This document shows, piece by piece, positions 14,181 through 55,362 of a stretch of DNA of 64,000 bases. The DNA is from Streptomyces justiciae. Its GTDB lineage: Bacteria; Actinomycetota; Actinomycetes; Streptomycetales; Streptomycetaceae. Below the pieces are notes generated by a model, which saw only the letters and a list, made by a program, of their open reading frames with translations, searched no databases and was not told where the DNA came from. The stretch lies in the NCBI RefSeq assembly GCF_015163075.1, contig NZ_JADDXU010000001.1:186001-250000 (forward strand), written 5' to 3'. The position numbers and the translations under genes are program-made. Each line of letters starts with the position of its first letter. Positions within the stretch are counted from its first letter, which is position 1.

Positions 14181-15026
14181 TCACAGCTCCTTGAGAGCGC
14201 GATGGATCATGGCGGACGAGGCTTCCATGTCCAACGCTTGTGCGCGGAGGTACTCGAACGCAAGTCTGTAGCGCTCCAGTTCCTCGTCCTTCTCCAGGAA
14301 CAGGGAGCCGGTGTGGAAGTCGACGTAGACCACGTCGAGGCCCGGCTCGACGCCCCCGATGATGACGAAGCTTCCCAGGGCCGCGGCGTGGGCCCCTTTG
14401 GAGAAGGGCAGCACCTGGAGCGTGATGTGCGGCGATTCGTTGGCTTCGAGGAGTCTGCCGAGCTGCTCTCTCATGGTCCCGGCTGACCCGACGACGCGGC
14501 GGATGACGGACTCGTCGAGAATCGCCCAGAGGCGCGGGGGCTTCGGCCGGGTGAGGATCTCCTGCCGCTTCATGCGGATGTCGACGAGCCGCTCGATCTC
14601 GCTCGGCTCCAGGGGGACCTCGTTGGCCCGTTGAAGTGCCGTGCTGTACGCGCGAGTTTGCAGTAGGCCGGGGACGTAGACACACGCGAAGTGGTTCTCA
14701 CCGATGGCCTCGTCCTCCAGCGTGAGCATCAGGTTCATGCTCTCCGGAATGGAGTCGGCGAAGGAGCTCCACCAGCCTTGCTGTTTGGCGTCCTTGGCCA
14801 GAGCGACAACAGACGTGCGTTCGGCCTCAGTTGCTCCGTATTCACGGCACAGCGCATCGACGACGATCCACTTGACGGGCCCGGCCTGGGTCTCGTACCT
14901 GCTGACCGTCGCCTTGGATACGCCGACGAGCTTCCCGGCCTCCTCCAGGGTCAGCCCCTTGCGGGCGCGCAACTTGCGCATCATCGCGCCCAATTGGCGG
15001 CGACGCGTTGTGGTCCGTTCGGACAT
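14181..15026 (-). CDS. Scr1/DUF5753-type helix-turn-helix regulator
   Basis: This 281-residue regulator has an N-terminal XRE-type HTH (about 9-65: LGAMMRKLRARKGLTLEEAGKL, then GVSKATVSRYETQAGPV). The long C-terminal DUF5753 domain (about 95-270) shows VYVPGLLQTRAYSTAL, MKRQEIL, WAILDESVIRRVVG and LGRLLEANESPHITLQVLPF. Such proteins control development or antibiotic genes together with DUF397 partners. It sits directly upstream of the DUF397 gene and divergent from an HATPase gene, the usual three-gene arrangement. Confidence 0.92.
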   Translation of the reverse strand: MSERTTTRRRQLGAMMRKLRARKGLTLEEAGKLVGVSKATVSRYETQAGPVKWIVVDALCREYGATEAERTSVVALAKDAKQQGWWSSFADSIPESMNLMLTLEDEAIGENHFACVYVPGLLQTRAYSTALQRANEVPLEPSEIERLVDIRMKRQEILTRPKPPRLWAILDESVIRRVVGSAGTMREQLGRLLEANESPHITLQVLPFSKGAHAAALGSFVIIGGVEPGLDVVYVDFHTGSLFLEKDEELERYRLAFEYLRAQALDMEASSAMIHRALKEL

Positions 15027-15244
15027 GCTGCTCCTTCGCCATGCGCCGGGTGCTAGACCCAGACATCCCCATCAGGCTAGGCAGCGCCGAACCAGACCCA
15101 CCATCAGATTCACCCGATAGATTCTGATGAGAAGTTACACAGTGAGAGTTCTCCGTGCCATGCTCAAACGCAGATCGCTACGCAGCGCAGCCGTACAGAC
15201 ACGGCAGGTGCAGCGCGTGCGTGGCATGGGAGGGAGGAGTGGCC

Positions 15245-15877
15245 GTGCCTGGCTACGAAGTCACCGAACCTCAACTCCGTTGTGTCCTGCCATTCGAGGC
15301 CGCGCCGGGGGAAGTCCGCCTGCTCCGGAGAGCGGTCGTGAAACAGCTGAGCCGATGGGGTGTGCCCATGGCGGCCGACGAAGCGGAGCTGCTCGTCACG
15401 GAGTTGGCGACGAACGTCTTCAAGCATGTTGGCGAGGGCGCCTCGGCCACCTTGATCCTTGAGCAGAGGGGAGAGCGGCTCCGGCTTGAAGTCCACGACA
15501 AGAGCCAGACGGTGCCGTCGTTGAGGGCAACTGATTGCGATGAGGAGTGCGGCCGCGGCCTCCACCTGCTCGCCGCCTTGGCAGTGGACTGGGGCACGGT
15601 CCTGACTGCGGTCGGCAAGGCAGTCTGGTGTGAGCTCTCGATCGGCTCGGAGCAGGGCTGTCGGCGTATCGAGAGAGCCGTTGAAACGCTTAAGTGCTAT
15701 CAGGGGCCCAGTCGCGGAGCTGTCCTCCAGGGGAAAGGGCGGGATGTGGCCCTTGAGGAGTCAGCGGTCGAGTTGATCGCGGACTTGCTTCACTGGACCG
15801 CGTCGCGCGGCCTTGATCCAGACGACGTTCTGGATCGCGCCCAGATGCACTACGAAGCCGAAGCGGATGTTGCGTAG
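15245..15877 (+). CDS. HATPase_c_2 ATP-binding protein (RsbW-like)
   Basis: This 210-residue protein has the GHKL ATPase core of RsbW-type anti-sigma kinases at about residues 10-130. The N-box ELLVTELATNVFKHV and G-box region CGRGLHLLAALAVDWG are visible, and the C-terminal 80 residues are helical and unassigned. GTG 15245 was chosen because AGGGAGGAG sits 5 bases upstream; the earlier GTG at 15239 overlaps that site. It is divergent from the Scr1-type regulator, and together they form a common Streptomyces regulatory trio. It may act as a kinase or adaptor for that regulator, an inference from context. Confidence 0.82.
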   Translation: MPGYEVTEPQLRCVLPFEAAPGEVRLLRRAVVKQLSRWGVPMAADEAELLVTELATNVFKHVGEGASATLILEQRGERLRLEVHDKSQTVPSLRATDCDEECGRGLHLLAALAVDWGTVLTAVGKAVWCELSIGSEQGCRRIERAVETLKCYQGPSRGAVLQGKGRDVALEESAVELIADLLHWTASRGLDPDDVLDRAQMHYEAEADVA

Positions 15878-15964: not shown

Positions 15965-16663
15965 CTATTCATCCTCGATCAGTGCTCCCGCGAGTTGCAG
16001 CATGACCTCCACCCGCTCGTCACGCCCCAGCCGCAGCCATTCAGCGAAGATCAAGTCGACTTCATCTCGCTCTGGCCTGCCAGCCTGCATGAGTCGGTAC
16101 AGCCGGCGCTTTTCTTCGCGGCTGCTGAGTCCGGATGCTCGCTCTGCTACTTCCTCTGGTGTGGTCAGCGCCGTTCCCCCGCCCCTGATCCCGGCGTTGC
16201 ACCGTTGGCACTCCACTCGGAGGTTGGACAGCTCTGTGTCTACTGGTGGCGTCGCGTCGATGATGTGGACGCTGAGTACCGCCCTCAGGTCTTCATCTGG
16301 ATAGGGCTCGCCTGCTGCCATACCGCATGTTTGGCAGGCGGACCCTGCCCTTTCGATGGCTTCTCGTCGGCGAGCGGCCGAGATCCGCGGCCGGGGAGTC
16401 TCCTTTGGCTGCTCCCCTAGATCGATACGGGTTCCGATCCTTGTCAGTCGGTACTCGTCAGGCTGGAGGTGCGGATCGGTCTTGTAGTTGTCGATCTTCC
16501 AGCCCAGCTCACGCAGGTCGCGCATGCGGCGATCCGCCTGGGCGACGCCAGGGACCCCCTCGAAAAGCTGGAGCTTGGTGAAGAGGTTGCCTTCTCCGAC
16601 TGCTGCCAGAAACTCGGCGACCTTCACTTTTGATGACCGCCGCACGGGGCGCTCGTCTGTCAT
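15965..16663 (-). CDS. HNH endonuclease-like protein, probable restriction subunit (HNH residues intact)
   Basis: This 232-residue protein has an N-terminal winged-helix-like domain (about 14-60: VAEFLAAVGEGNLFTK, then ADRRMRDLRELGWKI). A zinc-supported HNH domain (about 108-160) has Cys110/Cys113 and Cys152/Cys155, with candidate catalytic His133 (LSVHII), Asn147 (LSNLRV) and Asn156 (RCNAG). The ATG at 16663 has a GGAGGGAAG site; the open frame upstream of it is not convincing. It is paralogous to the product at 18926, which has lost the HNH residues. Lying downstream of a C5 methyltransferase, it is a good candidate for the cognate restriction enzyme or one of its subunits. That pairing is inference. 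Confidence 0.78.
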   Translation of the reverse strand: MTDERPVRRSSKVKVAEFLAAVGEGNLFTKLQLFEGVPGVAQADRRMRDLRELGWKIDNYKTDPHLQPDEYRLTRIGTRIDLGEQPKETPRPRISAARRREAIERAGSACQTCGMAAGEPYPDEDLRAVLSVHIIDATPPVDTELSNLRVECQRCNAGIRGGGTALTTPEEVAERASGLSSREEKRRLYRLMQAGRPERDEVDLIFAEWLRLGRDERVEVMLQLAGALIEDE

Positions 16664-17323
16664 CGCTTCCCTCCTGTCCGGCGCTTCTGATGCGCTGCCG
16701 TCGACTCTCGTAGCGGTGACGGCTCGGACTAGTGTACCGTCGGCGTCACCCGATTGGGTGCCGTCAGCGTTCGGCAACGTTCGGCAGAAACGCCACTGCG
16801 ATCTGTGGAGGCCAACCCACACCTGGACTCAAAGGGAGCGCTAGATCGGCTGCCCAGGCATCCATGAACCGCGCCTTTCAGCTGGAGGCACGGCAATGAG
16901 GCTTCCACGCCGACGGGAGCGTTCCCCGTTTATACGGCCCTCGGGCCGGAGAGGAGACCGGTCTTGAAGCTGGTGCGCTGGCTTAGGGATCGGTGGAAGG
17001 ACCAAGCGCGACCGCTCGTATCGTCCGCGCGCGTCTCGGCGGGGTGCGAAGCATTCCTCGTGATCGCGTGGATCTGCGAGCACTGTCTCTGGTCTTGATA
17101 TGCGTGTGCCCCGACTGAGTCATCAGCCAGGGCACACACCACCGAAGCCAGGAGCTCCGTCCTCGCACCCCGCGGATAGCAGCCGCGGGAGGACGGAGCC
17201 TCTGGTCGCTGTCGGCGCTGCGCCACCTCTACGAGGTGCGGGCACCTAGCACGACAGTAGCAATTGAGCCGCCATGATGGGGAGGCTGATGGCTGCGAGG
17301 GGCAGCGACAGCCCGCCGCTGAC
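16664..17323. other. 660-bp non-coding gap in the restriction island
   Basis: No credible gene was found between the HNH gene and the methyltransferase: the open frames here lack coding bias and start signals. The gap must hold the promoter of the HNH gene (AGTGTA at 16731-16736 gives TACACT on the minus strand, a possible -10) and the end of the methyltransferase transcript. It also contains the two strong hairpins listed separately. Confidence 0.6.
17104..17198. ncRNA. Candidate structured RNA or terminator pair
   Basis: Two adjacent stem-loops lie about 125 bases past the methyltransferase stop. The first has 8-bp arms GTGTGCCC (17104-17111) and GGGCACAC (17130-17137). The second has 10-bp arms CTCCGTCCTC (17155-17164) and GAGGACGGAG (17189-17198), with an inner CCGCGG pair. 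The second could be a strong terminator; both together might be a structured RNA of either strand. No known RNA family is recognised. Confidence 0.4.
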
Positions 17324-18691
17324 CTAGCTGATCTTGGCCCTGTGCTGAGTAAACAGATCGTGCCGCTGATGGTCGTCCTGACCAGTGAACGCCTTGAACT
17401 CGCCCAGGCTGTATGCGATGACGCCATTTGACCTGGCCGTCATCGTTACCGTGAAGTCGTGACCCAGGTGGTTCAAGCGCCGCTCAACATCCGGCTGCTC
17501 AAGGAAAGTGCCACCCTTGGCGAGCTTCTCAATGATCTGGTCGACAGTCAGGGCACGGTTAGAACCACGGAGCAGTTTGTACACGGGGTCCAAAATCCGG
17601 TCAGTGCTCTCCAGAAGGGTCCGACGCTCACCCTCCTGATGGATGGCTTTCCGGATGGCTACCCCCAGAGCCTTGGCGACCGGGGGAGGGAATGCGTTGC
17701 CGATCTGCCGGTACACGGAGGTCTTGCGTCCGTGGAATTTCCAGCGGAATTCGTAGCTTGCAGGCGAAGCGCTGCCCTCAAGAGGCTCGAAGTCGTGCCA
17801 TCCCTGGATTCGGGCAACCATGGCAGTAGTCAGTTTTGGTCCTGGGACGCCTTCTGGGGCTCGCCACCCCTCTGATGGGGCCTCGTTGGCCACGCCCATG
17901 GCGTCCACACCGAGGGCCTCCCACGCCCGCTTGGCCCTTGTAGGGCCGAGGTCAGCCCCACCATGTTTCTTGGAACCGCCGACAATCGTCGGAGCGATGC
18001 CATCGGCTCTCTTGACCCAGTCATTGACCTGGTCTTCTTCCCAGCCATTGCTGGCCATGAGGTCACGGAGCAGCTCTCCCACTGAGGGCGGCTCTTCCTC
18101 GCAGGGTGTGGGCCAGTCCCAGTACTCTGCAAACTCTTTTTTGAGGGCAACGAGGACAAAGCGAGGACGGAGCTGGGAGACACCAAACTCGTTGGCTTGG
18201 AGGAGTTTCCAGTCACCGATGTAGCCGTGCTCGTGAAGCCGGTCCAAGACATGCTGCCGGTAGGCCGTGAAGCGATTGGCGCTGAGCCCCCGCACGTTTT
18301 CTAGCAGGAGCGCCTTCGGTTGAATCTCCCCACAGAGCTCGACCGCCCAAGCAAAAAGATCTCGTTCGTCATTGGCGCCCAACTGCTTGCCTGCGATGCT
18401 GAACGGTGGACACGGGACGCCGCCAGCGAGCAAGTCGACGCCCTTGTGTTCTTCGGGCTTCCAGGTGTTGCTGTCGGCAACGTCGCCGATCTTTACAGTC
18501 TCTTCCGCCTCTTCTTCGCTGTACCCGAGGACTTCCTGCAAATTGCAACGCAAGGTGTTTGCCGCGTTCGCATCGAGCTCCACTGCGACACGATGACGAA
18601 ACCCCGCCCGTTCCAGCCCGAGGGTCTGACCTCCCGCGCCCGCGCAGATCTCGACGACTTCGAGCTGCCTGTCGCGCTCCGACGTCGCCAT
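17324..18691 (-). CDS. DNA cytosine-5 methyltransferase (Dcm family)
   Basis: This 455-residue enzyme transfers methyl from S-adenosylmethionine to C5 of cytosine in a specific site. Visible motifs are I (EICAGAGGQTLGLERAG, 14-30), IV with nucleophile Cys94 (GGVPCPPFS), VI (LENVRG, about 130), VIII (QLRPRFVLVAL, 173-183) and X (RQIGNAFPPPVAKALG, 328-343). The target-recognition region lies at about 190-320. A C-terminal extension (about 360-455) beyond the usual end of the family resembles a winged-helix domain. ATG 18691 has a GGAG site. It is flanked by two HNH-type genes on the same strand, with a Vsr gene nearby, so it probably protects host DNA in a type II-like system. The recognition site is unknown. 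Confidence 0.93.
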   Translation of the reverse strand: MATSERDRQLEVVEICAGAGGQTLGLERAGFRHRVAVELDANAANTLRCNLQEVLGYSEEEAEETVKIGDVADSNTWKPEEHKGVDLLAGGVPCPPFSIAGKQLGANDERDLFAWAVELCGEIQPKALLLENVRGLSANRFTAYRQHVLDRLHEHGYIGDWKLLQANEFGVSQLRPRFVLVALKKEFAEYWDWPTPCEEEPPSVGELLRDLMASNGWEEDQVNDWVKRADGIAPTIVGGSKKHGGADLGPTRAKRAWEALGVDAMGVANEAPSEGWRAPEGVPGPKLTTAMVARIQGWHDFEPLEGSASPASYEFRWKFHGRKTSVYRQIGNAFPPPVAKALGVAIRKAIHQEGERRTLLESTDRILDPVYKLLRGSNRALTVDQIIEKLAKGGTFLEQPDVERRLNHLGHDFTVTMTARSNGVIAYSLGEFKAFTGQDDHQRHDLFTQHRAKIS

Positions 18692-18925
18692 TCGATCTCC
18701 TTTCAGGCGCGCTGAGTCAGCGCGGGGCCGAGATTTTTTGCGCTCGGCTCTATCACAGCGGGCACTCGATTGAACACAGCTCCCGCAGCAGCACACTAGT
18801 CGTCGATCTTCGCCGACGTCACCCAGTTCGTGCGGCGAGCCGGGCGCGAAGGCGAAGTCTACGGTGGCCCACTGGCCTGCACGAAACACGCCTGGCTCAT
18901 GGGCCCCGCAGCCGAGTAGGAACGA

Positions 18926-19615
18926 TCAACCTTCAAGCACGGCCCGTACCTCGTCGCGGGCATCGGCCGGCAGGCGGCGGTAGGAATTCCACGCCCGGTC
19001 CAGTGCTGTGGAGCCCCGTCGTCCGCGCTCGATCCACCGGAGGAGCCGACGTCGGTCGCTGGGGTCTAGCGCCTGGATATCAGCCACCGCCTCGTCGGCT
19101 CGGGCGGGAAGATCGCCACTCCCTGCGCGGCATCGCTTGCATTCAGTGACGAGCAGGGTTCGTTCCCGGCCGTCCGGAAGTACGGTTTCGCGGCGGGTGA
19201 CGGAGAGCACGCCAGTCTGGTTGGAGTCGTCCACGTAGGCCTCGCCGCCAGAAATTCCGCAAACGCTGCACATGTAGTCGTCGCGGGCCATGACGGCCTG
19301 TTTCTCCTTGTTGGAGACGGTCTTCTGCGGTGCCGCAGCGCGGCGGGCCGCCGAGTCCCAGACAGGGACGCCCGCCTTGACGAAGCGCTGGTCCTCAGCC
19401 ATGAGCCTTGCATCGTCAGCGTTCGTGAAGAGGACCCAGCCGTAGTCGCGAAGATCGCGTATGCGTCGGTCCGCCTGTGAGATCCCCGGGAAGGCTTCGC
19501 GCAGCTGCTCCTTGGTGAACGTGTTTCCCTCGCCGACCACTTGGACGAGCCAGAGTGCTCCGCGGACCATGGTTCCGGCCTTGAGCGCAGGATCGTCCCA
19601 GACGGGCAGCGTCAC
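18926..19615 (-). CDS. HNH-like paralogue with all three HNH residues replaced
   Basis: This 229-residue protein aligns with the product at 15965 through its N-terminal domain (EGNTFTKEQLREAFPGISQA, then DRRIRDLRDYGW) and through the zinc-binding domain. Cys116/Cys119 and Cys159/Cys162 are kept. In a gapless 29-residue alignment the candidate catalytic His, Asn and Asn of the paralogue become Thr140, Leu and Arg163. It is therefore probably catalytically inactive but still folded, perhaps a DNA-binding partner subunit. The start is GTG 19615 with GGAG at suitable distance. It is the first gene of the minus-strand set and is divergent from the ParB-like gene across 119 bases. Confidence 0.72.
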   Translation of the reverse strand: MTLPVWDDPALKAGTMVRGALWLVQVVGEGNTFTKEQLREAFPGISQADRRIRDLRDYGWVLFTNADDARLMAEDQRFVKAGVPVWDSAARRAAAPQKTVSNKEKQAVMARDDYMCSVCGISGGEAYVDDSNQTGVLSVTRRETVLPDGRERTLLVTECKRCRAGSGDLPARADEAVADIQALDPSDRRRLLRWIERGRRGSTALDRAWNSYRRLPADARDEVRAVLEG

Positions 19616-19734
19616 TTCTTGCTCCGTTCTCCAAGTGATCGAGATGTTGATTGTCGGCTATGGGCGCACGCTGTGTCAGCGGGTCCTGCCATGATGCTGG
19701 GACACACTGCGTCTGGCACTTGGAGGCTCTGGTT

Positions 19735-21144
19735 ATGGCTGTGAAGTTCGGCGTTCCGCCCGAGGGTGAGAAGATTCGCTCGCTGGTGGACGAGCGGCTC
19801 AAGCAGGCCATGGCCGACGACGGTGCGAAGATCACCGTGGAGTGGCGTGGTGAGCAGAAGCACCTGCATGTGATCTCCATGCCGGTCGACATGCTCTACT
19901 TCAACCCCGACACGCACCGCATCCGCGCGCAGCGCACTCTTGACCCGGAGCGCAATCGGGTTCTAGAGGAAGAGCCTTGGAGCGAACCCGCACAAACGTA
20001 TCTGCATCACTTGTTGCGTTGCCGACCCTCCAACCCCACCCAGACTGACCCTGATTACCTGGCGCTGCAGGACGAGTTGGACGATGTGGGCCAGAGAGAG
20101 CCCGGCATCATCAGCCCAGACGGCATCCTCGTCGACGGGAACACCCGATGTGCCGCGTTGAAGGACCTGGGCATCAAGAACATTCGGGTGGGTGTCCTTC
20201 CTGCCGACACGTCTCGTCGCGATATCAACAGCGTTGAACTTGCCCTGCAGTTGCGTCGTGACAAGCGTCGCGAGTACTCGTACATCAACCGCCTCATCGC
20301 GATCGAAGACGAGCTTGCGGACGGCCGACGTGAGGAGGACGTGGCCCGAGATTTCAACATCAAGAGGACTACGCTCCAGCAGGACCGCTGGGTTTACCAG
20401 CTGATCAAAGATGCGATTGACCGCAGCAAGACGCCGAACGGTGCCGTTCTGCGCCTGGTCGACTTCGAAGATCACCAGGAGAAGCTCCGTGAGCTTCACC
20501 GCGACTACACCAAGCTGGCCAAGACTGACCCAGACGCTGCTGAGCAGCTCAAGGAATCCCGTCTGGCCATGGTGGTCCTGAACTATGCGAAGACGACAGT
20601 GCGCCTTGCAGAAGCTGACTTCCACAGCCGATACCTCGAAGAGCGCCTGCCCAGCGAACTGCGGCCCGCCACCCAGGAGTCTGCTGCCGTGGCGATTCCA
20701 GGCCTGGTTGGTGTAGCGATCCCAGACGCAACCGCTGCAGTCAAGACCACTCGTGCTCTTACAGACGCCCTGTTGCAGGCGAAGGCGGTGGCACAGGCCG
20801 GTGACAAGCTGGATGCTGCGGCCGTGGCACAGGCTGACGCTCGCATCAAGACGGCGCGGAAGACCTTCGACGCTGCGGTGAAGCTGGCAGGAGCGAATGC
20901 TGAACTCCAGAAGCGTCAGGTGGCTGTCCCGGAGCGCCTCACGGACGCTGCTGACTACGTCAACCAGTGTGCTGCCGAGTTCGCCGAGGCCAAGGCTAAG
21001 CGAGCACTCGACGAGGATGCATTTGATGACGCTTTGCTCACGTTGAAGGCCAGTCTTGCCCGCCTAGCTAAGCAAGCGGGGCGCACCTTCAGCTCGCCTG
21101 GCAACGGTGTGGCCTGGCTGCTCGACTCCACGCGGGAGAACTGA
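19735..21144 (+). CDS. ParB/Srx-like domain protein of the defence island
   Basis: This 469-residue protein has a ParB-like core at about residues 45-160. VDMLYFNPDTHRIRAQ corresponds to the first strand region and DGILVDGNTRCAAL (129-142) to the DGNRR-type motif. This is followed by a helical DNA-binding-like section (EDELADGRREEDVARDFNIK, then RTTLQQDRWVYQLI) and a long Ala-rich helical C-terminus (about 330-460) likely to form coiled coils. ATG 19735 has GGAGG 8 bases upstream. Its stop overlaps the start of the SNF2 helicase (TGATG), indicating coupled translation. Related domains act as nucleases, CTPases or target-binding parts in phage defence; which applies here is unknown. Confidence 0.75.
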   Translation: MAVKFGVPPEGEKIRSLVDERLKQAMADDGAKITVEWRGEQKHLHVISMPVDMLYFNPDTHRIRAQRTLDPERNRVLEEEPWSEPAQTYLHHLLRCRPSNPTQTDPDYLALQDELDDVGQREPGIISPDGILVDGNTRCAALKDLGIKNIRVGVLPADTSRRDINSVELALQLRRDKRREYSYINRLIAIEDELADGRREEDVARDFNIKRTTLQQDRWVYQLIKDAIDRSKTPNGAVLRLVDFEDHQEKLRELHRDYTKLAKTDPDAAEQLKESRLAMVVLNYAKTTVRLAEADFHSRYLEERLPSELRPATQESAAVAIPGLVGVAIPDATAAVKTTRALTDALLQAKAVAQAGDKLDAAAVAQADARIKTARKTFDAAVKLAGANAELQKRQVAVPERLTDAADYVNQCAAEFAEAKAKRALDEDAFDDALLTLKASLARLAKQAGRTFSSPGNGVAWLLDSTREN

Positions 21145-22988
21145 TGGCAGGGCAGTCCCCTGCTCCCAGCCTTGAGATCGGTTTTGGCGAGGGCGTGACC
21201 CGCGCGCGGCTTCGAGCCGGGACTGGATATGAGAGCGATCTGCGGCGCCTCGCCCTGCGGTTCCAAAGCAGCGTCCAGCGCTCCCCGGGAACCATGGAAG
21301 TCGAGATCGATGATCTCCTGACGAACCTGGTGGCACTCGCTACCTGGCCTGAACCCAGCAGTGTTGCCTGGGATCCACAGCTGGCTGCGCTGGCTACAGA
21401 CTCCGCCGTCGACGCGCAGACGGTTGCCAAGCGGCTGGATGCCAAAGCTGGCCCAGACGGAGAGGTCGACCCGGACGACGTTGACAGTCTGCTTGGCTCA
21501 AGTTGGGTAGCGGATCTCACGGTGTTTCAGCGCCGGGATATCGCAAAACTGCTCTCACTTCGCCACGGCGCCAACTTCTCTGTACCGGGCGCTGGCAAGA
21601 CCCGTGTGGGCCTCGCCGTGTTCCACTCTTTGCGGCGCAGTAGTGGCATTGAGAGGCTGCTGATCGTCGGTCCGAAGTCCTGCTATGAGTCCTGGAAGTA
21701 CGAGAACCAGAAGTGCTTGCGCGAACCCTTGAGCATGGACGTGTTCTCCAAAGACGCCGATCCAGGTGCGGACGCGCTCATTGTGAACTACGAGCGCCTG
21801 CGCCAGGACGGAGTTGTGAATGAACTCGGCCAATGGCTGGCGGCTCGGCCATCGATGCTGCTGCTAGATGAGGCGCACCGGATGAAGCGCGGTGCCGACG
21901 GCACGGACGGAGCTGCCTGCCTCGCCCTGGGGCCCCGCAGCAGACACCGGCTCATCCTTACCGGGACGCCGGCGCCGAACGGTGTGAAGGACTTGGAGAA
22001 CCTCTTCGGCTTCGTGTGGCCTGGCCATGGCCGCCAGAAGGTAATCCAGGCGGTGGCCGGCGGGGACCTCGCCAAGGCGAGCCAGGTGCTGCGCCCCTTG
22101 TTCACGCGCACGACCAAGAGTGAACTCGGGTTGCCACCTGTTTCCACGAGCCTGACTACCGTGCCCATGCCGCCTCTTCATCAAGAGGTCTATGAGGCGC
22201 TTGTCGGGCGGTTTTCTGCCCGCGCCTCTGGCTCGGAGAGTGACTTCCTCGCTCTTGGCAAGGTCATCGTCTACATGCTGATGGCAGCGACTAGCCCTGC
22301 GCTGCTCGCCGTTGGCACGACGCGGCATGAACCCTTGTCGTACCAGGTGCCGCCACTCTCCGTGCCTGCGGGCACGCCGCTGTTTGAGCTGATGAAGGAC
22401 CTGCCGAGTTACGAGATGTCGCCGAAGTACCGCGAGGTTCTGGCGATCCTTAGCAGGAATGCTGCCCAGGGACGTAAGACGCTGGTTTGGTCGACCTTTG
22501 TACGGAGTCTTAACACGCTGGAGCGCATGCTCAGCGAATTCTCGCCCGCCCTGGTCTACGGCGCGATGGATGATGCGGACCGCGAGGAAGCGATCAATCG
22601 ATTCCGTTACGATCCCGACTGCATGGTTCTCCTGTCTAACCCAGGAACTCTCGGCGAAGGCATTAGCCTTCACCATCACTGCCACGACGCTGTTTACGTG
22701 GATCGGGATTTTGCGGCGGGTCGCTTTCTTCAAAGCCTCGACCGTATTCATCGGCTCGGTCTTGCTCCAGAGACGGAGACACGGATCACGGTCCTTGCTT
22801 CAGAAGGAACAATTGACGAAATTGTTGATCAACGGCTCAGTGACAAGCTCAAGTTCATGGGGAGCATCCTCGATGATCCGGCTGTCCAGCAACTGGCTGA
22901 CCTTGAGGAAGAACCCGCAGTCGGCGGTGGCCTGGACCACCGGGACCTTCAGGCCCTGATGGGACATCTCCGTGCCCGTGCCGCCTGA
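21144..22988 (+). CDS. SNF2-family DNA helicase/translocase
   Basis: This 614-residue ATPase has Walker A (PGAGKT, 148-153), DEAH box (242-245), motif III (TGTPAPNG, about 273-280) and a RecA-like second domain with GEGISLHHHCHDAVYVDRDF and motif VI QSLDRIHRLG (530-539). About 120 N-terminal residues precede the motor and may bind the partners. It starts inside the stop codon of the ParB-like gene and its end overlaps the DUF3883 gene by 17 bases. The three genes form one tightly coupled operon. SNF2 motors in restriction-like systems translocate on DNA to license cleavage, so it probably drives this module. Confidence 0.88.
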   Translation: MAGQSPAPSLEIGFGEGVTRARLRAGTGYESDLRRLALRFQSSVQRSPGTMEVEIDDLLTNLVALATWPEPSSVAWDPQLAALATDSAVDAQTVAKRLDAKAGPDGEVDPDDVDSLLGSSWVADLTVFQRRDIAKLLSLRHGANFSVPGAGKTRVGLAVFHSLRRSSGIERLLIVGPKSCYESWKYENQKCLREPLSMDVFSKDADPGADALIVNYERLRQDGVVNELGQWLAARPSMLLLDEAHRMKRGADGTDGAACLALGPRSRHRLILTGTPAPNGVKDLENLFGFVWPGHGRQKVIQAVAGGDLAKASQVLRPLFTRTTKSELGLPPVSTSLTTVPMPPLHQEVYEALVGRFSARASGSESDFLALGKVIVYMLMAATSPALLAVGTTRHEPLSYQVPPLSVPAGTPLFELMKDLPSYEMSPKYREVLAILSRNAAQGRKTLVWSTFVRSLNTLERMLSEFSPALVYGAMDDADREEAINRFRYDPDCMVLLSNPGTLGEGISLHHHCHDAVYVDRDFAAGRFLQSLDRIHRLGLAPETETRITVLASEGTIDEIVDQRLSDKLKFMGSILDDPAVQQLADLEEEPAVGGGLDHRDLQALMGHLRARAA

Positions 22989-23829
22989 ACCGGTACTGCG
23001 TGCGGCTGTCCGCTGGCTGGAGAGGCTCCCTGCCAGCGGAGTCGCGCGGGTCCGCGCGTTGTTCACTACACACGGCGACTTTAGCGACATCACGCCCACT
23101 CAGTACGACGCAGCGTATGCCTGGATCCAGGAAACGGGACTCCTTGACGGGGCGAATAGCAAGGTGCCAGTGAGTTGCCGAGTCTTTGATGCAGCGATGG
23201 CGCATAGCGGAGTGCCGTGGTTCCGAGACGCCGACCTGCTTATCCGCAGGCCGGATGAACTTCCCGAAGACGCCCTTCGGGCAGCAGAGGCCCTCGGTCT
23301 TGCTCCGGACGAGGCCTACGCTCAGGTGGGTACGGTGTGGGGCAAGGTCGATACCGAGGAGCGTTCTCGCATCGGTTCAGCGGGTGAACTTGCGCTCCTT
23401 GAGCTGCTGTCGGAATCAGCGGAAGGGAAGGTTGAGCATGTCGCAGCATGGTCCGACGGCTACGGTTACGACATTTTCGTGGACGCTTATCAGCACTCCG
23501 CCCACCTGGAAGTGAAGACGACGGTTCGCGTGGGGCGGCTCACGATCTACATATCGCGCAACGAGTACGAGACGATGTTGCGCGACCCGGCTTGGGAACT
23601 CGTAACTGTCCGCCTCACTCCAGAGCTGAAAATAACGGGCGTAGCGGCAGTTCCACGAGATTGGATTGCACGCCACGTTCCCTCAGATCGCACAGCACGA
23701 GGACGCTGGGAATCATGTCGGCTCGAAGTGCCTCCAGAGGTGCCGGTGCCAGGCATTCCGAGCGTTGTACCGATGCTCACCGAAACCGCGCCAGACGTCC
23801 TCAGAGGGCAGCTGGTACATCAGGTCTGA
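22972..23829 (+). CDS. DUF3883 protein with PD-(D/E)XK-like core
   Basis: This 285-residue protein has an N-terminal helical domain (about 5-120) and a C-terminal DUF3883 domain. The spacing of Glu139 (SAGELALLELL), Asp167 (GYGYDIFV) and Glu180-Val-Lys182 (HLEVKTT) is that of a PD-(D/E)XK nuclease active site, so a DNA-cutting role is plausible. The GTG start at 22972 lies inside the end of the helicase gene; GTG 22978 is an alternative. It converges on the DUF262 gene with a 10-base overlap. It is the likely effector of the ParB/SNF2/DUF3883 module, by inference. Confidence 0.78.
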   Translation: MPVPPEPVLRAAVRWLERLPASGVARVRALFTTHGDFSDITPTQYDAAYAWIQETGLLDGANSKVPVSCRVFDAAMAHSGVPWFRDADLLIRRPDELPEDALRAAEALGLAPDEAYAQVGTVWGKVDTEERSRIGSAGELALLELLSESAEGKVEHVAAWSDGYGYDIFVDAYQHSAHLEVKTTVRVGRLTIYISRNEYETMLRDPAWELVTVRLTPELKITGVAAVPRDWIARHVPSDRTARGRWESCRLEVPPEVPVPGIPSVVPMLTETAPDVLRGQLVHQV

Positions 23830-25823
23830 GCTCCAGCGTTTGAGAGCAGGAACTCCTGTGGCTCCGCAGACCATTGATCGTCGTTGGGCTCAGGACACTC
23901 CGCCAGGGGCTGTACCCCCTCGAAAGCATCCTTGACCGCAGTACGCCACTCATCGAGTGAACCCCGAATGATGAAAGGGCCTAGGCCGAGTGTCACGCTG
24001 CCTTCGTCATCGACGCGAAGCGGAGCTGTCTCGTCGCCAACGGGCACATCACTGGCAATACCGGTGGCGGCAGCGTCGAGCGCTGCTTCAAAGTCAGCTG
24101 GGTCAATCCACCCGATCCAGCCTTGGTCGTCAGATTTAGCCTCTGCCACCAGTACGCTCCGGCCGGCTCCCGTATAGCCGACGAGCGCAAGCGATCGCGG
24201 AGCGCGGGTCTTGGGTGGTGCGGCGTCCTTAGCCAGGGAATTGGGTCGGAATTCGTCGAAGAGAGCTGTGATCCGTTCGGCTAGAAGTGCTCTCCGGGCC
24301 CCCAGGAATTCTCGATAACCTTCGGGATCAAGCACGGTGGGGTCGTTCGGGATTGCATGGGCGACACGGTCACTGGCGCTCACGCTCTGCATGTAGGCAG
24401 CTGGTGATCGGCTACCAATGATGTTCTTCGACGTCTGCTCTGAGACGAACACGATGTTCGCAAGTTCGTTGATCTCTGCTGACGAGTACTTGCTGCCGTA
24501 GGTCCGCAATTTTGCCGTCGGATGTACAAGGCTGTATTGCGGCTTGCCGGACCCATCGATACCATCGGAAATGGGGCAGCCGTCCCACCAGTCGGTGGCA
24601 TTCGCGTGAGCTGCCGCAAGATAGCAGAACATCAAGTAGGGACTCTGGTGGTTACGTCCTGCCAAGTCGCTGGCGGTTACGGAAATTCCGCCCTCATAGA
24701 TTCCCAGGTTAGAAAGCAGAGCGGGCACAGGGTTTTCATTGTCAAGCATCCTGATGTCCTGCGTAAGCGCTGTGTCCGAGGCTCCGCCGTATCGGTTGCG
24801 GGCTGTAGCAGCAAGGAACCAATACAGAAGTCCATTGTCCAGTTCCTCGGAGATTACTGTGTCATCTGGCCAACGCCCGTAGTAGTGGATGAGCGGGTGG
24901 AGCGCGGCAAGTGAAGGGACCAGAGCCGTAGTCGGGATGAGGAGCCTCTCTTGCAGGAGAGGCACGACGCGGGAAAGCCCGCGCCGGACCTTTTGCCAGC
25001 CGGCTTCGACCGATTCCTTGCTGGCAGCGGTCAGCTTGGCGACGGAGGCCAGACGTGTGCCCGTGGTTGACAGGCTCAACGTCAGCGCTTTGATGAGGAA
25101 GTTGACGTCGAGGGCACCATACCCGCGCTCAGCCCAATGGGCCGATTCTGCTTCCAGCTGTCCCAGGAATCCGGGTGTGCGTGCGGAAAGTGTCGCGAGC
25201 GCGAGGTCTGTGGTCTTGAGTGCACGGCCACCGCTGTTTACTCGGACGAATACGTCGGCGACTTCTTCATATTCGAATTCGTGGAGCACCTCCATGTGGA
25301 AGTCGCGTTGAGTGATCTTCTGAAGTGCACTTAGGCGCCGCCCGATTTCAGAGTCGGGAATGGCAAGCCCTGCGCCCTTGAGGTCGCCATGGATTGCAAA
25401 CACGTCGGAGTCAGGGCCGACGACGTCGTAGACTTTGATCCATTTCTTGTTGCGCCGGGTAGCAGCGCTCTGGTTCTGGAAAGCTTCGGTCTCGATGTTG
25501 AAGACAACCTGGGCGTCCGGATGATCAGTGAGCACTCGGAAGAGCGAGGTGAGCCTCTGCTGGCCGTCGAGAAGGTATAGGGGCATGACGCTTGGCAACG
25601 CCTGACGGGCACCGATTGCCGCCCCCCGAGTTTCGGTAGGCTGGCCGGTCTTCCAGAAGAGAAGGGAGCCAGCCGGGTATCCGCGATACAGCGACTCGAT
25701 GAGCCTGGCGACCTGCGATGCCTTCCACACATATCCACGCTGGATCTCGGGGAGCATGATCTCTCCCGCTGCGATCTGCGTGATCAGTGTCCGGACGTCG
25801 CGGTTTGTGCGTTCGACGGCCAC
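23820..25823 (-). CDS. DUF262 (GmrSD-like) protein with degenerate HNH-like C-terminus
   Basis: This 667-residue protein has an N-terminal DUF262 domain with LPEIQRGYVWKASQVARLIESL, GYPAGSLLFWKTG and the DGQQR motif (residues 86-90) followed by LTSL. DUF262 is a ParB-like NTP-binding and cleaving domain known from type IV restriction enzymes such as GmrSD and from BrxU. In the C-terminal half, LVHPTAKL (His434) and INELANIVFVSEQTSKNIIGSRSPAAYM align by eye with the HxxP...N...N...K HNH pattern of that group. GTG 25823 was chosen because it opens the conserved N-terminus and follows GGGGGG. Probably a modification- or NTP-dependent nuclease, in the same island as the methyltransferase. Confidence 0.78.
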   Translation of the reverse strand: MAVERTNRDVRTLITQIAAGEIMLPEIQRGYVWKASQVARLIESLYRGYPAGSLLFWKTGQPTETRGAAIGARQALPSVMPLYLLDGQQRLTSLFRVLTDHPDAQVVFNIETEAFQNQSAATRRNKKWIKVYDVVGPDSDVFAIHGDLKGAGLAIPDSEIGRRLSALQKITQRDFHMEVLHEFEYEEVADVFVRVNSGGRALKTTDLALATLSARTPGFLGQLEAESAHWAERGYGALDVNFLIKALTLSLSTTGTRLASVAKLTAASKESVEAGWQKVRRGLSRVVPLLQERLLIPTTALVPSLAALHPLIHYYGRWPDDTVISEELDNGLLYWFLAATARNRYGGASDTALTQDIRMLDNENPVPALLSNLGIYEGGISVTASDLAGRNHQSPYLMFCYLAAAHANATDWWDGCPISDGIDGSGKPQYSLVHPTAKLRTYGSKYSSAEINELANIVFVSEQTSKNIIGSRSPAAYMQSVSASDRVAHAIPNDPTVLDPEGYREFLGARRALLAERITALFDEFRPNSLAKDAAPPKTRAPRSLALVGYTGAGRSVLVAEAKSDDQGWIGWIDPADFEAALDAAATGIASDVPVGDETAPLRVDDEGSVTLGLGPFIIRGSLDEWRTAVKDAFEGVQPLAECPEPNDDQWSAEPQEFLLSNAGAQT

Positions 25824-26035
25824 CTTGCCCCCCAGGGATCTACGCGGGCGCGGCTCGATGGCCGTCTCCGCTGCGCCTCGTTGTGAGCCCAGCCAGACAG
25901 CCTCCCCACCGAAGCTGCTAATGCCGCTGAACCCGCTGGAGATAGCGTAGACGAGGGAGAAGGGACTATGGCCTGGGATTCTTACATCGCGGCGGAAGCG
26001 GATGGGCTGGGCAACAGCTGCGGCGCGCACCGTTG

Positions 26036-26503
26036 CTAACGCGAGGCTTCAAGGGGTTGTGTTCTTCTGGCTGCGACCGCCTCGCAGACCTTGAGCGAGC
26101 ACTCTTCCGCCGACTCGTGTTCCCAGAAGCGGAGTACGAGCCACCCCGCCTCCTTGAGCTGTTGATCTGTGTCGCGATCACGCGCCACGTTGCGCAGTAC
26201 CTTCTCAGACCAATAGCCAGGATTCGTCTTCGGCGGTACGTAGTGCTCGGGGCAACCATGCCAGTAGCAGCCGTCGATGAAGACGGCCACTTTAGCCGGA
26301 CGGAACACCATGTCTGCTGTCCGGCGGAGGCCTGGCAGAGGGCGCGCGGCCACGCGGTAGCGAAGTCCTTGGGCATGAACTAGCCGTCGGATCAGCTTCT
26401 CGGGCTTTGTGTCACGGCTGCGGATCGCCTGCATGTTGCGACGACGGGCCGCGGACGAGGCCCAGGAACCTTCTGGTGCTTCCCACTCGGGATCTTCGGA
26501 CAC
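26036..26503 (-). CDS. vsr: Very-short-patch-repair (Vsr) type endonuclease
   Basis: This 155-residue protein matches Vsr along most of its length: RRRNMQAIRSRDTKPE, the metal-binding Asp64 (TADMVF), the zinc/active-site region FIDGCYWHGCPEH (His82, His87) and LRFWEHE. Vsr nicks next to T:G mismatches made by deamination of 5-methylcytosine and so prevents C-to-T mutation at methylated sites. Its presence fits the C5 methyltransferase at 17324. The gene lies 212 bases upstream of the DUF262 start on the same strand. In actinobacteria Vsr-like proteins may also act as restriction nucleases. Confidence 0.9.
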   Translation of the reverse strand: MSEDPEWEAPEGSWASSAARRRNMQAIRSRDTKPEKLIRRLVHAQGLRYRVAARPLPGLRRTADMVFRPAKVAVFIDGCYWHGCPEHYVPPKTNPGYWSEKVLRNVARDRDTDQQLKEAGWLVLRFWEHESAEECSLKVCEAVAARRTQPLEASR

Positions 26504-27010: not shown

Positions 27011-28489
27011 ATGGGGATGTCAGCCTGCTCGGGGGAGCGGGCGTTGCGGCGCGGTGTCGGGATGGGGGTGAGTGCCGTGGCTGAGGTGGAGTTGGTGGCT
27101 CTTGGGGGTGTGGAGGGTGGGGGAGGTGTTCGCCGTTCGGGGGTGGCTGCCGGGCCTCTTGATGAATGGGTTGCTTCGCTTCGGGAGCGGTCGCCCAGTG
27201 CGGTGACTGCTGGTGAGCTTGGTGCTCTTGAGCCGGAGCTGATGACGGCGCGCGGGCGTATTGATGCGCTTGTGGTGTTGGAGCAGCATCTGGCGTGGTT
27301 GCAGGCCAAGCAGGTGGAGGTGTTGGCGGCTGTTGCCGCGCATACGGAGACTCCCGAGGCCGTCATCGTTGAGGCGGGTGGGTGTTTGGAGGACGTCTTT
27401 GCTGCTTCCTGGGACGGGGCCGTAGAAGAGGTGGCCTGCGCCCTGCGGTTGGCCAATCAGACGGCTGCGCAGCGGCTGAAGGTGGCTACGTTGTTGGTGG
27501 GGCGCCATGGGGCGACTTGTCGGCTGCTGGGCGAGGGACAGATCTCCTATGTGCAGGCCATGGCGGTCGCCGAGCAGTTGGAGGTCTTGGACGACGAGGT
27601 GGCTGGGCGGGTTGAGGCCGCCCTCGTCGACAAGATGCCGGGGCAGGCTGCCGGGCAGACTCGGGCCGCGTTGCGTCGGCAGATTCTGCGGGCCGATCCC
27701 AAGGGGGCAGAGCAGAGGCATCGGGCGCGGGCGAGCGAGCGGAGGATTCAGCACTATCCGCAGGATGACGGCATGGCGTTGTTCGGGGCAGTGTTGCCCG
27801 CTCAGCAGGCTGCGCTCATGGAGCAGGCGGTTGACGTGCGGGCCCGGGGCTATGAGGCCGATGGGCGCAGCTTGGAGCAGAAGCGTGTGGATGCTCTGTT
27901 CGATCTTGTGGTCAATCAGCCTGGGGCTTTGCCTTCGGGATCGGCTTCCGAGGCGGCTTCGGTCTCGGGGGACGCTGCGGGTGGGCGGGGTGCTGCGGTG
28001 GTGCAGGTGACCGTTCCCATTGATGTGCTTCTCGGTGCCGATGAGGGGCCCGCGGAGCTCAAGGGGTATGGGCCCATCGGAGCCTCGCAGGCGCGGGAGG
28101 TGGCCTTTGCGCCGGGGACGGTCTGGCGGCGGTTGTTGATCGAGCCGGCGACCGGGTTGCTCGTCAAGACCGATCCCACCACCTATCGACCCACCGCCGA
28201 GACTGAGCGGCAGGTCATCGCCCGGGATCAGTACTGTGCGTTTCCCAGCTGCCGTATGCCTGCTCATCGGTGCGATCTGGATCATGTGGAGCCGTTCGAC
28301 CATCGGAACCCCGGGCGGGGTGGTCAGACGACGCCGGACAATCTGCAGCCGTTGTGCCGTCGACATCATCGGCTCAAGACACATCACCCGGGGTGGAAGG
28401 TCACCCGGGATCCCCACACCGGCGTTGCCACCTGGACCGCGCCGACCGGACATACGTACACCAATGCTCCGCCCGTCTATCGGGAGTGA
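27011..28489 (+). CDS. DUF222 / HNH endonuclease (13E12-repeat-like family)
   Basis: This 492-residue protein has an N-terminal DUF222 region (about 60-330; AQRLKVATLLVGRH and LRRQILRADP are typical) and a C-terminal HNH domain (about 400-450). That domain has Cys pair YCAFPSC, the CDLDHVEPF His motif, TTPDNLQPLCRRHHRLKTH and then HPGWKV. All HNH residues appear intact. Actinobacteria carry many such genes; their role is unsettled and they are often linked to mobile DNA. ATG 27011 is used, but ATG 27017 or 27062 is possible since no strong ribosome site is visible. A Gly/Ser/Ala linker splits the two domains. Confidence 0.87.
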   Translation: MGMSACSGERALRRGVGMGVSAVAEVELVALGGVEGGGGVRRSGVAAGPLDEWVASLRERSPSAVTAGELGALEPELMTARGRIDALVVLEQHLAWLQAKQVEVLAAVAAHTETPEAVIVEAGGCLEDVFAASWDGAVEEVACALRLANQTAAQRLKVATLLVGRHGATCRLLGEGQISYVQAMAVAEQLEVLDDEVAGRVEAALVDKMPGQAAGQTRAALRRQILRADPKGAEQRHRARASERRIQHYPQDDGMALFGAVLPAQQAALMEQAVDVRARGYEADGRSLEQKRVDALFDLVVNQPGALPSGSASEAASVSGDAAGGRGAAVVQVTVPIDVLLGADEGPAELKGYGPIGASQAREVAFAPGTVWRRLLIEPATGLLVKTDPTTYRPTAETERQVIARDQYCAFPSCRMPAHRCDLDHVEPFDHRNPGRGGQTTPDNLQPLCRRHHRLKTHHPGWKVTRDPHTGVATWTAPTGHTYTNAPPVYRE

Positions 28490-29762: not shown

Positions 29763-30791
29763 CTATGCCGCTCCCACCCCGTGGCAGTCCCCGTACACCT
29801 GCTCCGACCCGCACCAGCACGCCGCCCCCCGCTGCGGCGGCCACGCCACCGCTCGGCCCCGGGCCGCCAGCGTCGTCGCGTACTGCGGCAGCAGCGCGCT
29901 GTCCGCCGGGGAGGTTCCCTCTGATGCCGCGAAGGCCTCGTAGGAGGGGACCGTGCCCGTGACGATGCCCAGGTTCGGGGTGCCGGAGGCCGCCAGTTCG
30001 CGGAGGGAGGCCTCTATCGTCGCGAGGTGCTCCTCGTGGGAGGGGTACTCCTCCGACAGGGGCGCGTACGCGGTCAGCAGCTCCGTCAGTTCGGCCTTCG
30101 GCCAGTGCAGGACCGCCACCGGGAACGGGCGGGACAGGGCCTCGCGGTAGGCGCCGAGCTCTGCTCGTAGGCGGGAGATCTCCGCCGCGAGTTCCGCCGG
30201 GTTGTCCGAGCCGAGGGACCAGACGCGCTTGGGGTCGTGCAGTTCGTCCAGCGGGACCGGGGACGTGTGGAGGGTGTCCGCCAGTACGTCCCAGTCGTCG
30301 TGCGGGGCGCCCAGCATCCTGCGGACCCGGTGGCGGCCGAAGAGCAGGGGGTGGGTTGAGTACGGGGGCTCCGGCACGTCCGTCAGGAGGAGGCGGGCGC
30401 CCTCCGTGAACGTCTCCTGGGCCTGCTCCAGCTCGTCGTGGGCTTCGAGGGCCTCCGCCACGATCACCCACGGTGCCGGGTCCCGGGGGGACGCCGCGCG
30501 GACGCCGGTAATGATGGCCCTGGCCTCGGCCTCGTGGCCGTACTCCCACAGGTTCGAGGCCTTGAGGGCGCGTACCAGATGCGGGTTCTCCAGCGAGGCG
30601 GACGAGGACAGCAGGCGGTCGTAGAGCGTGGTCGCCGCGGGGCGGTCGCCGGACAGTTCCAGGTGGGCGGCGGCCTGCAGGAGCAGGGGCTCGGCGTCCT
30701 CGGGATACAGGCCGGCGGTTCGCTCCAGGCGTGCCGCTTCGGCGGTGTGGTCGACGTTCTCGGCAGGCGTGTCGGGGCGCATGAGGGACAC
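29763..30791 (-). CDS. TPR-like protein with C-terminal SEC-C zinc motif
   Basis: This protein of about 342 residues has TPR-like helical repeats at about 20-125 (AARLERTAGLYPEDAEPLLLQAAAHL and later), a middle alpha/beta part and a C-terminal SEC-C motif (CWCGSEQVYGDCHG), a SecA-like zinc-binding element. SEC-C domains often mediate protein contacts. The GTG at 30791 and the ATG at 30782 are both possible starts; neither has a strong ribosome site. The gene stands alone. Confidence 0.75.
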   Translation of the reverse strand: MSLMRPDTPAENVDHTAEAARLERTAGLYPEDAEPLLLQAAAHLELSGDRPAATTLYDRLLSSSASLENPHLVRALKASNLWEYGHEAEARAIITGVRAASPRDPAPWVIVAEALEAHDELEQAQETFTEGARLLLTDVPEPPYSTHPLLFGRHRVRRMLGAPHDDWDVLADTLHTSPVPLDELHDPKRVWSLGSDNPAELAAEISRLRAELGAYREALSRPFPVAVLHWPKAELTELLTAYAPLSEEYPSHEEHLATIEASLRELAASGTPNLGIVTGTVPSYEAFAASEGTSPADSALLPQYATTLAARGRAVAWPPQRGAACWCGSEQVYGDCHGVGAA

Positions 30792-49310: not shown

Positions 49311-49319
49311 CGTCGTCTG

Positions 49320-49393
49320 TGCGCCGCCAGGGACTCGAACCCCGGACCCGCTGATTAAGAGTCAGCTGCTCTAACCAACTGAGCTAGCGGCGC
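49320..49393 (-). tRNA. tRNA-Lys (anticodon CTT)
   Basis: The 74-nt cloverleaf is complete on the minus strand: acceptor GCGCCGC/GCGGCGC, D arm GCTC/GAGC, anticodon stem GCTGA/TCAGC with loop CTCTTAA, five-base variable loop, T arm CGGGG-TTCGAGT-CCCTG and discriminator A. CCA is not encoded. The same tRNA occurs again at 55289-55362 with the same sequence. Confidence 0.97.
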
Positions 49394-55283: not shown

Positions 55284-55288
55284 TGAGG

Positions 55289-55362
55289 TGCGCCGCCAGG
55301 GACTCGAACCCCGGACCCGCTGATTAAGAGTCAGCTGCTCTAACCAACTGAGCTAGCGGCGC
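55289..55362 (-). tRNA. tRNA-Lys (anticodon CTT), second copy
   Basis: The 74-nt sequence is the same as at 49320-49393, with full cloverleaf and CTT anticodon loop CTCTTAA. Two identical tRNA-Lys genes about 6 kb apart, both followed by a partial copy of themselves, indicate duplication of the whole unit. Confidence 0.97.

Follow-up and report, generated by a model that had tools for sequence, protein, structure and literature searches.

Within a 64-kb window of the Streptomyces justiciae genome (64,000 nt, the whole stretch of DNA analyzed here; host genome 10.45 Mb), eight genes encoding proteins of nucleic-acid processing constitute a locus that we file as a new variant of restriction–modification (R-M) dependent on adenosine triphosphate (ATP). 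All eight open reading frames (ORFs) are intact, have no internal stops, and lie at the coordinates listed below, with the likely starts corrected to 16663 (HNH1), 18691 (methyltransferase, MT), 19735 (ParB-like protein) and approximately 25823 (DUF262 protein).

15965–16663, minus strand: HNH1, a winged helix-turn-helix (HTH) and HNH family protein (PHROG HNH, 2.4e-05, and alignments), apparently accessory
17324–18691, minus strand: MT, C5-cytosine DNA methyltransferase (PF00145, 4.7e-53)
18926–19615, minus strand: HNH2, a winged HTH and an apparently degenerate HNH zinc scaffold (alignments, AlphaFold models)
19616–19734, no strand: divergent intergenic region of 119 bp between HNH2 and ParB, presumed promoters
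19735–21144, plus strand: ParB-like protein with a predicted ParB/Srx nucleotide-binding domain, HTH and a long helical C-terminal part
21144–22988, plus strand: SNF2-family ATPase (PF00176, 8.1e-16)
22972–23829, plus strand: NOV_C/DUF3883 protein with a complete PD-(D/E)XK motif (PF13020, 4.9e-07)
23820–26030 (likely start about 25823), minus strand: DUF262 (GmrSD_N) protein without DUF1524 (PF03235, 9.7e-26), apparently accessory
26036–26503, minus strand: Vsr mismatch endonuclease (PF03852, 1.3e-21; TIGR00632, 134.6 bits at a cut-off of 97.85)

The ParB and SNF2 genes overlap, as do the SNF2 and NOV_C genes, which fits a single operon. The guanine plus cytosine (GC) content of the eight-gene stretch is 0.620, compared to 0.706 and 0.712 in the flanks, and no 10.5-kb stretch of the window, out of 214, is lower, in agreement with an earlier note on this DNA that had described eight such genes together in less GC-rich surroundings. 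NOV_C is presumably the DUF3883 of that note.

Seventy-eight loci were gathered by alignment of the ParB-like protein, which is thus present in them by selection, and the partner genes were scored by tblastn at 1e-6. HNH2 and SNF2 have been found in all 78, the MT in 75, Vsr in 68, a NaeI homologue in 22 and DUF262 in eight. The core splits into two clades, A (40 loci including the window) and B (38 loci). In clade A, NOV_C and the MT are each present in 39 loci, with one exception cut off by a contig end (L010, for NOV_C) and the other near a contig end (L008, for the MT). Clade B has NOV_C in none of its loci, and the MT and Vsr in 36; the operon is often preceded by a divergent gene, belonging to one cluster in 19 loci (the member scanned has no Pfam match) and to another in 11 loci (weak HTH matches). 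The MT is lacking in L070 and L077. In L041 all six genes, ParB–SNF2–NOV_C–HNH2–Vsr–MT, are co-directional, and co-directional genes are likewise observed in L032 and L033. On a Streptomyces albidoflavus plasmid (L085, 10001–14077) we observe ParB–SNF2–NOV_C, with HNH2 not found.

A sample of 150 Streptomycetaceae genomes, not selected for the locus, shows the same linkage. SNF2 is matched in 23 of them, one match (G075) being merely 31% identical with no partners nearby. The remaining 22 genomes always have ParB at no more than 2 kb and HNH2 at no more than 4 kb; 21 have Vsr within 12 kb, 19 have the MT (at the cut-off used) and ten have NaeI. In G128 and G082 the MT and Vsr proved present once the stretches were fetched, while in G123 the MT, Vsr and NaeI are located elsewhere in the genome, far from the core; altogether, the MT and/or Vsr are within reach in 21 of the 22 core genomes. 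One of the 150 genomes (G115) has a strong HNH2 match but lacks the core, and the match in G096 is a truncated copy at a contig end. Fisher tests at the genome level yield p = 1.7e-25 for HNH2 with SNF2 and p = 4.1e-08 for the MT with SNF2, values that serve as a guide only, as the genomes are related.

The earlier note had left it undecided whether the genes form one system or two stacked ones, and had held that rare co-occurrence of the homologues would speak against a single system. They are not rarely linked, and this conserved co-occurrence favours one core in the clade of the window, composed of HNH2, ParB, SNF2 and NOV_C, with the C5 MT and Vsr. The idea of two modules survives as history: in seven of nine further loci (L097–L101, L103, L104) an MT+Vsr pair, in some cases with NaeI, exists without the core, and a history in two modules is thus real. 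Both DUF262 and HNH1 appear to be additions, since DUF262 is present in only eight of the 78 loci and HNH1, within the fetched stretches, solely in the window and L006, that is, in one of the 78 related stretches.

HNH2 has no match in Pfam or PHROG, and only a weak one (REase_II, 4.3e-04) in PADLOC; its label and that of the ParB-like protein rest on weak PADLOC or PHROG matches, alignments and AlphaFold models. The nearest named match of the window HNH2 comes from Streptomyces pseudovenezuelae (L040, 86%). Alignment of the 79 core copies shows the four zinc cysteines kept in all of them and the catalytic HNH histidine in none, with arginine at this position in 72. For comparison, among the 120 listed relatives of the non-core HNH protein of L099, whose neighbourhoods were not read, the histidine is found in 119 and the asparagine in 99, and all core HNH2 proteins fall on one side of a tree branch with support 98/91. 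Judging from these alignments, HNH2 is a degenerate HNH nuclease and likely a relative of restriction enzymes; the earlier note, which labels it "HNH-like", had missed the loss of the catalytic histidine. HNH1 is approximately 33–34% like HNH2 and has in the alignment both H and N, displaced by one residue, with the proline missing. The HNH2-like gene of G115 (L102, 6675–7349) is solitary, as the stretch fetched contains no MT, ParB or SNF2, and it has lost the histidine and kept the asparagine.

The ParB-like protein has no Pfam match and a weak PHROG ParB-like match (3.5e-04); its AlphaFold model contains the ParB nucleotide-binding N-domain and an HTH. The GERR region reads GNTR, and binding and hydrolysis of cytidine triphosphate (CTP) are putative. 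In SNF2, Walker A, DEAH and motif VI are conserved across 79 sequences. NOV_C shows the PD-(D/E)XK pattern E...D...ExK, and its nuclease motif (E139, D167, E180, K182) is conserved at no less than 97% of 40 sequences. In the DUF262 protein (23820–26030), GmrSD_N is the only domain above the Pfam cut-off and the DUF1524 nuclease half has not been found.

The MT matches TIGR00675 above the cut-off, with intact PCPP and ENV motifs; these two and GGS..HGGADLGP.RAK are conserved at no less than 97% of 68 sequences drawn from both MT groups. The NaeI homologues of the 22 loci are found near MTs of the window's type (the copy in L068 matches PF09126 at 1.5e-115). NaeI cuts GCCGGC, and as related MTs sit beside NaeI-type enzymes, our guess for the target site is GCCGGC. 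This word is slightly depleted in the window (78 occurrences, 105 expected), less so than the control word CCGCGG (54, 100 expected), and the proposal thus rests on the association. Sets of HNH, MT and Vsr with a normal HNH motif also exist (L097, L098).

The gene set recurs in actinobacteria at large and has counterparts in other bacteria. One of these, the operon X–ParB–SNF2–DUF3883, is found on alphaproteobacterial plasmids, namely in Kozakia, Azospirillum, Rhizobium and Mesorhizobium (in the latter, a transposase gene precedes DUF3883); these plasmids also carry a C5 MT, and those of Rhizobium, Mesorhizobium and Kozakia carry Vsr. The ParB and SNF2 proteins are 24–28% and 39–43% identical to those of the window, respectively. 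Protein X is not an HNH protein, and is 27–30% identical to the product of a gene directly following a C5 MT (L084:2845–3711). Eighteen plasmid records contain a gene of the L084 type or X. The L084-type gene, a restriction-enzyme candidate, stands directly behind a C5 MT in all six aligned loci and keeps in all six a PD-(D/E)XK-like motif, HDY...I(E/D)LKG. X has Ile or Val at both aligned acidic positions in nine of nine sequences, and reads IQK or VQK in 117 among the 120 relatives listed. It retains the lysine, as well as an aspartate two residues upstream, and therefore the alignment strongly suggests, short of proof, that its activity is lost. On the Kozakia plasmid with the X operon we also observe an active-type nuclease gene beside a C5 MT, annotated in two pieces (L109, 2093–2951).

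HNH2 and X are unrelated and both degenerate, so two unrelated dead nucleases apparently fill the same slot. Moreover, mutual identities of 60–73% unite the MTs from three X loci in a family of their own, hardly related to the MT of the window; a change of dead enzyme thus goes with a change of MT family, and ParB and SNF2 stay. This joint swap is our main ground for taking the dead enzyme, by inference, as the specificity subunit.

A search with the Rhizobium SNF2 yielded 70 plasmid and four phage records, and ten neighbourhoods were read. In L088 (6170–8821) and L089 (5951–8506), ParB is followed by an SNF2 protein that carries a PLD domain at its N-terminus, beside a Sau3AI-type R-M system, and here the nuclease seems to have been exchanged; L092 has the same neighbours, with PLD below the Pfam cut-off. 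On Lactococcus and Enterococcus plasmids (L090, 5377–8500; L095, 5602–8725) the ParB–SNF2 pair directly follows type III mod–res genes. A Paracoccus plasmid (L087, 3835–9651) carries, by motif-based labels, an N4/N6-type methyltransferase and a NOV-like gene alongside ParB and SNF2, with no sign there of a dead enzyme, and Streptococcus phage Javan191 (L094, 1–6607) carries a BanI/DpnII-like protein, ParB, SNF2 and NOV_C adjoining a C5 MT. Partners of the ParB–SNF2 pairs in L091 and L093 are of no recognised kind. In Rhizobium L096 (6983–12232), SNF2, ParB, a DGQHR protein and a radical SAM protein stand together, perhaps as another modification system.

This gene set is not described in the open-access PMC literature searched, and may have been reported elsewhere. 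PADLOC (2023) and NCBIfam contain no good model for HNH2, ParB or NOV_C, and match parts of DISARM, Druantia, Zorya, Dpd and BREX only below threshold or partially, which bears out the placement of the locus outside the named systems in the earlier note. Among the nearest parallels is CglI/NgoAVII (PMC5737866, PMC4267653), an ATP-dependent R-M type that combines a methyltransferase with an SF2 ATPase and a nuclease, each on a subunit of its own. In the second group of MORC-containing R-M operons (PMC2292703), a helicase of the SWI2/SNF2 type occurs together with C5 methylases, Vsr and nucleases that are HNH or EcoRII-like; these operons are defined by the MORC/GHKL ATPase, which the core lacks, and a term search of PMC2292703 found no ParB. 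A PLD–SNF2 protein of a Lactococcus plasmid resembles the locus in having an SNF2 ATPase and a nuclease domain beside a methylase, and is likened to DISARM in a passage of PMC6098607 that contains neither ParB nor a dead nuclease. DUF3883–SNF2 fusions are noted in a passage of PMC3710099.

Known systems sharing single components differ otherwise. The type IIE R-M system NaeI has a related C5 MT and Vsr, but NaeI has no matches in the genome of the window (G000) at E 1e-15, and the core is additional. GmrSD type IV systems share the DUF262 domain and the theme of a ParB/Srx fold with HNH, while DUF1524 is absent from the locus, which has its own methyltransferase. DISARM and Druantia II are resembled in the DrmD-like SNF2 and in the C5 methylase, similar to DruM2 and DrmMII. 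DISARM was rejected, as SNF2 scores 43 bits against the DrmD cut-off of 610 and, among the matches listed for the eight proteins, DrmB and DrmC do not appear and DrmA appears once and weakly (6e-04, to SNF2). Druantia II was rejected as well: the MT hits the DruM2 model at 6.5e-190 (the best 25 of 60 PADLOC matches are listed for it), yet DruE, DruF and DruG are not among the matches listed for the eight proteins. A type II R-M system with an HNH restriction enzyme has intact MT motifs in its favour, but is contradicted by the histidine lost from every core HNH2.

The locus is flanked by a regulator/ATP-binding pair (14181–15877) and, on the other side, by a conserved gene (29763–30791); the adjoining ORF 27011–28489 we take to be DUF222-like/HNH. 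The conserved gene is present in 35 of the 150 Streptomycetaceae genomes. In five (G000, G055, G064, G094, G128; coordinates compared by eye) the core is not farther than about 7 kb from it, and in other genomes, e.g., G072, G107 and G148, other C5 R-M genes are nearby, which suggests that it marks a defence hotspot. Elsewhere in the window, two tRNA-Lys (CTT) genes lie 6 kb apart on the minus strand (49319–49393 and 55287–55362).

Taken together, the conserved gene set, the loss of the HNH2 histidine, the motifs kept in SNF2 and NOV_C, and the unrelated degenerate nuclease in the alphaproteobacterial slot lead us to a reading, to which we assign a probability of about 0.5, of an MT locus where HNH2 as the recognition subunit would guide ParB, SNF2 and NOV_C to unmethylated DNA for ATP-dependent cutting. 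Restriction, the target site and phage defence we infer. The MT would mark self DNA at the site read by HNH2, and HNH2 would recognise the unmarked site; the ParB-like protein would bind CTP and be loaded at the unmethylated site, SNF2 may provide ATP-driven movement on DNA or remodelling, and NOV_C would cut. Vsr would repair T:G mismatches arising from deamination of 5-methylcytosine, and DUF262 and HNH1 may be extra effectors. Several observations weigh against this reading: clade B does without NOV_C and often without any other obvious nuclease, some cores lack the MT or have it unlinked, and clade A taken by itself does not show the extra distance correlation of HNH2 and the MT (partial 0.41, 56 loci).

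The alternatives differ in what they make of these facts. An unlikely explanation, still worth keeping in view, is that a C5 type II R-M system (MT, Vsr, sometimes NaeI or HNH) and an independent ParB–SNF2 module of defence or maintenance travel together in a shared hotspot, as would agree with the MT+Vsr pairs lacking the core, the distant NaeI–MT–Vsr genes of G123, the missing MT of L070 and L077, the ParB–SNF2 pairs beside type III mod–res and Sau3AI-type systems on Bacillota plasmids, and the R-M neighbours of the conserved flanking gene in genomes without the core. It fits poorly with the MT and/or Vsr being within reach of nearly every core, the interleaved co-directional order of L041, and the kinship of the core's first subunit, itself degenerate, with nucleases found paired with methyltransferases of this kind.

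That the module does not cut at all we regard as quite improbable: here the dead enzyme would load ParB and SNF2 on unmethylated foreign DNA for silencing or exclusion, or would protect sites against a partner enzyme that is active. ParB proteins are known to spread along DNA, and in clade B, where cores lack NOV_C, Vsr is often the only recognisable nuclease; still, the complete nuclease motif of NOV_C in 39 of 40 clade A loci, and its presence in the alphaproteobacterial and phage-borne versions, argue for cutting. Least credible, and indeed very doubtful, is an ordinary type II HNH system in which HNH2 or HNH1 cuts via altered residues, with ParB, SNF2 and NOV_C as helpers in repair or against suicide. 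The shifted H and N of HNH1 and the normal-motif sets of L097 and L098 would allow for it, but HNH2 lacks the histidine throughout, mostly in favour of arginine, and HNH1 is all but confined to the window.

Extending the reading of a guided, ATP-dependent nuclease, we tentatively propose, at a little short of an even chance, a new class of restriction: at least twice, a restriction enzyme would have had its active site killed and been retained as a guide, sensing methylation and loading a ParB CTP clamp and an SNF2 motor onto unmethylated sites, cutting would be left to a nuclease that can be exchanged (NOV_C or, in Bacillota, PLD fused to SNF2), and the dead enzyme and the MT would be swapped jointly while ParB–SNF2 stays. 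If so, the module would be an ATP-powered engine of restriction that can be re-targeted, and recognition, entrusted to a retired restriction enzyme, would be on a different protein from cutting. This would place a ParB-type protein, a kind known from chromosome partition, within immunity, explain the ParB and SNF2 genes at many C5 R-M loci, and provide a source of natural site-specific DNA-binding modules.

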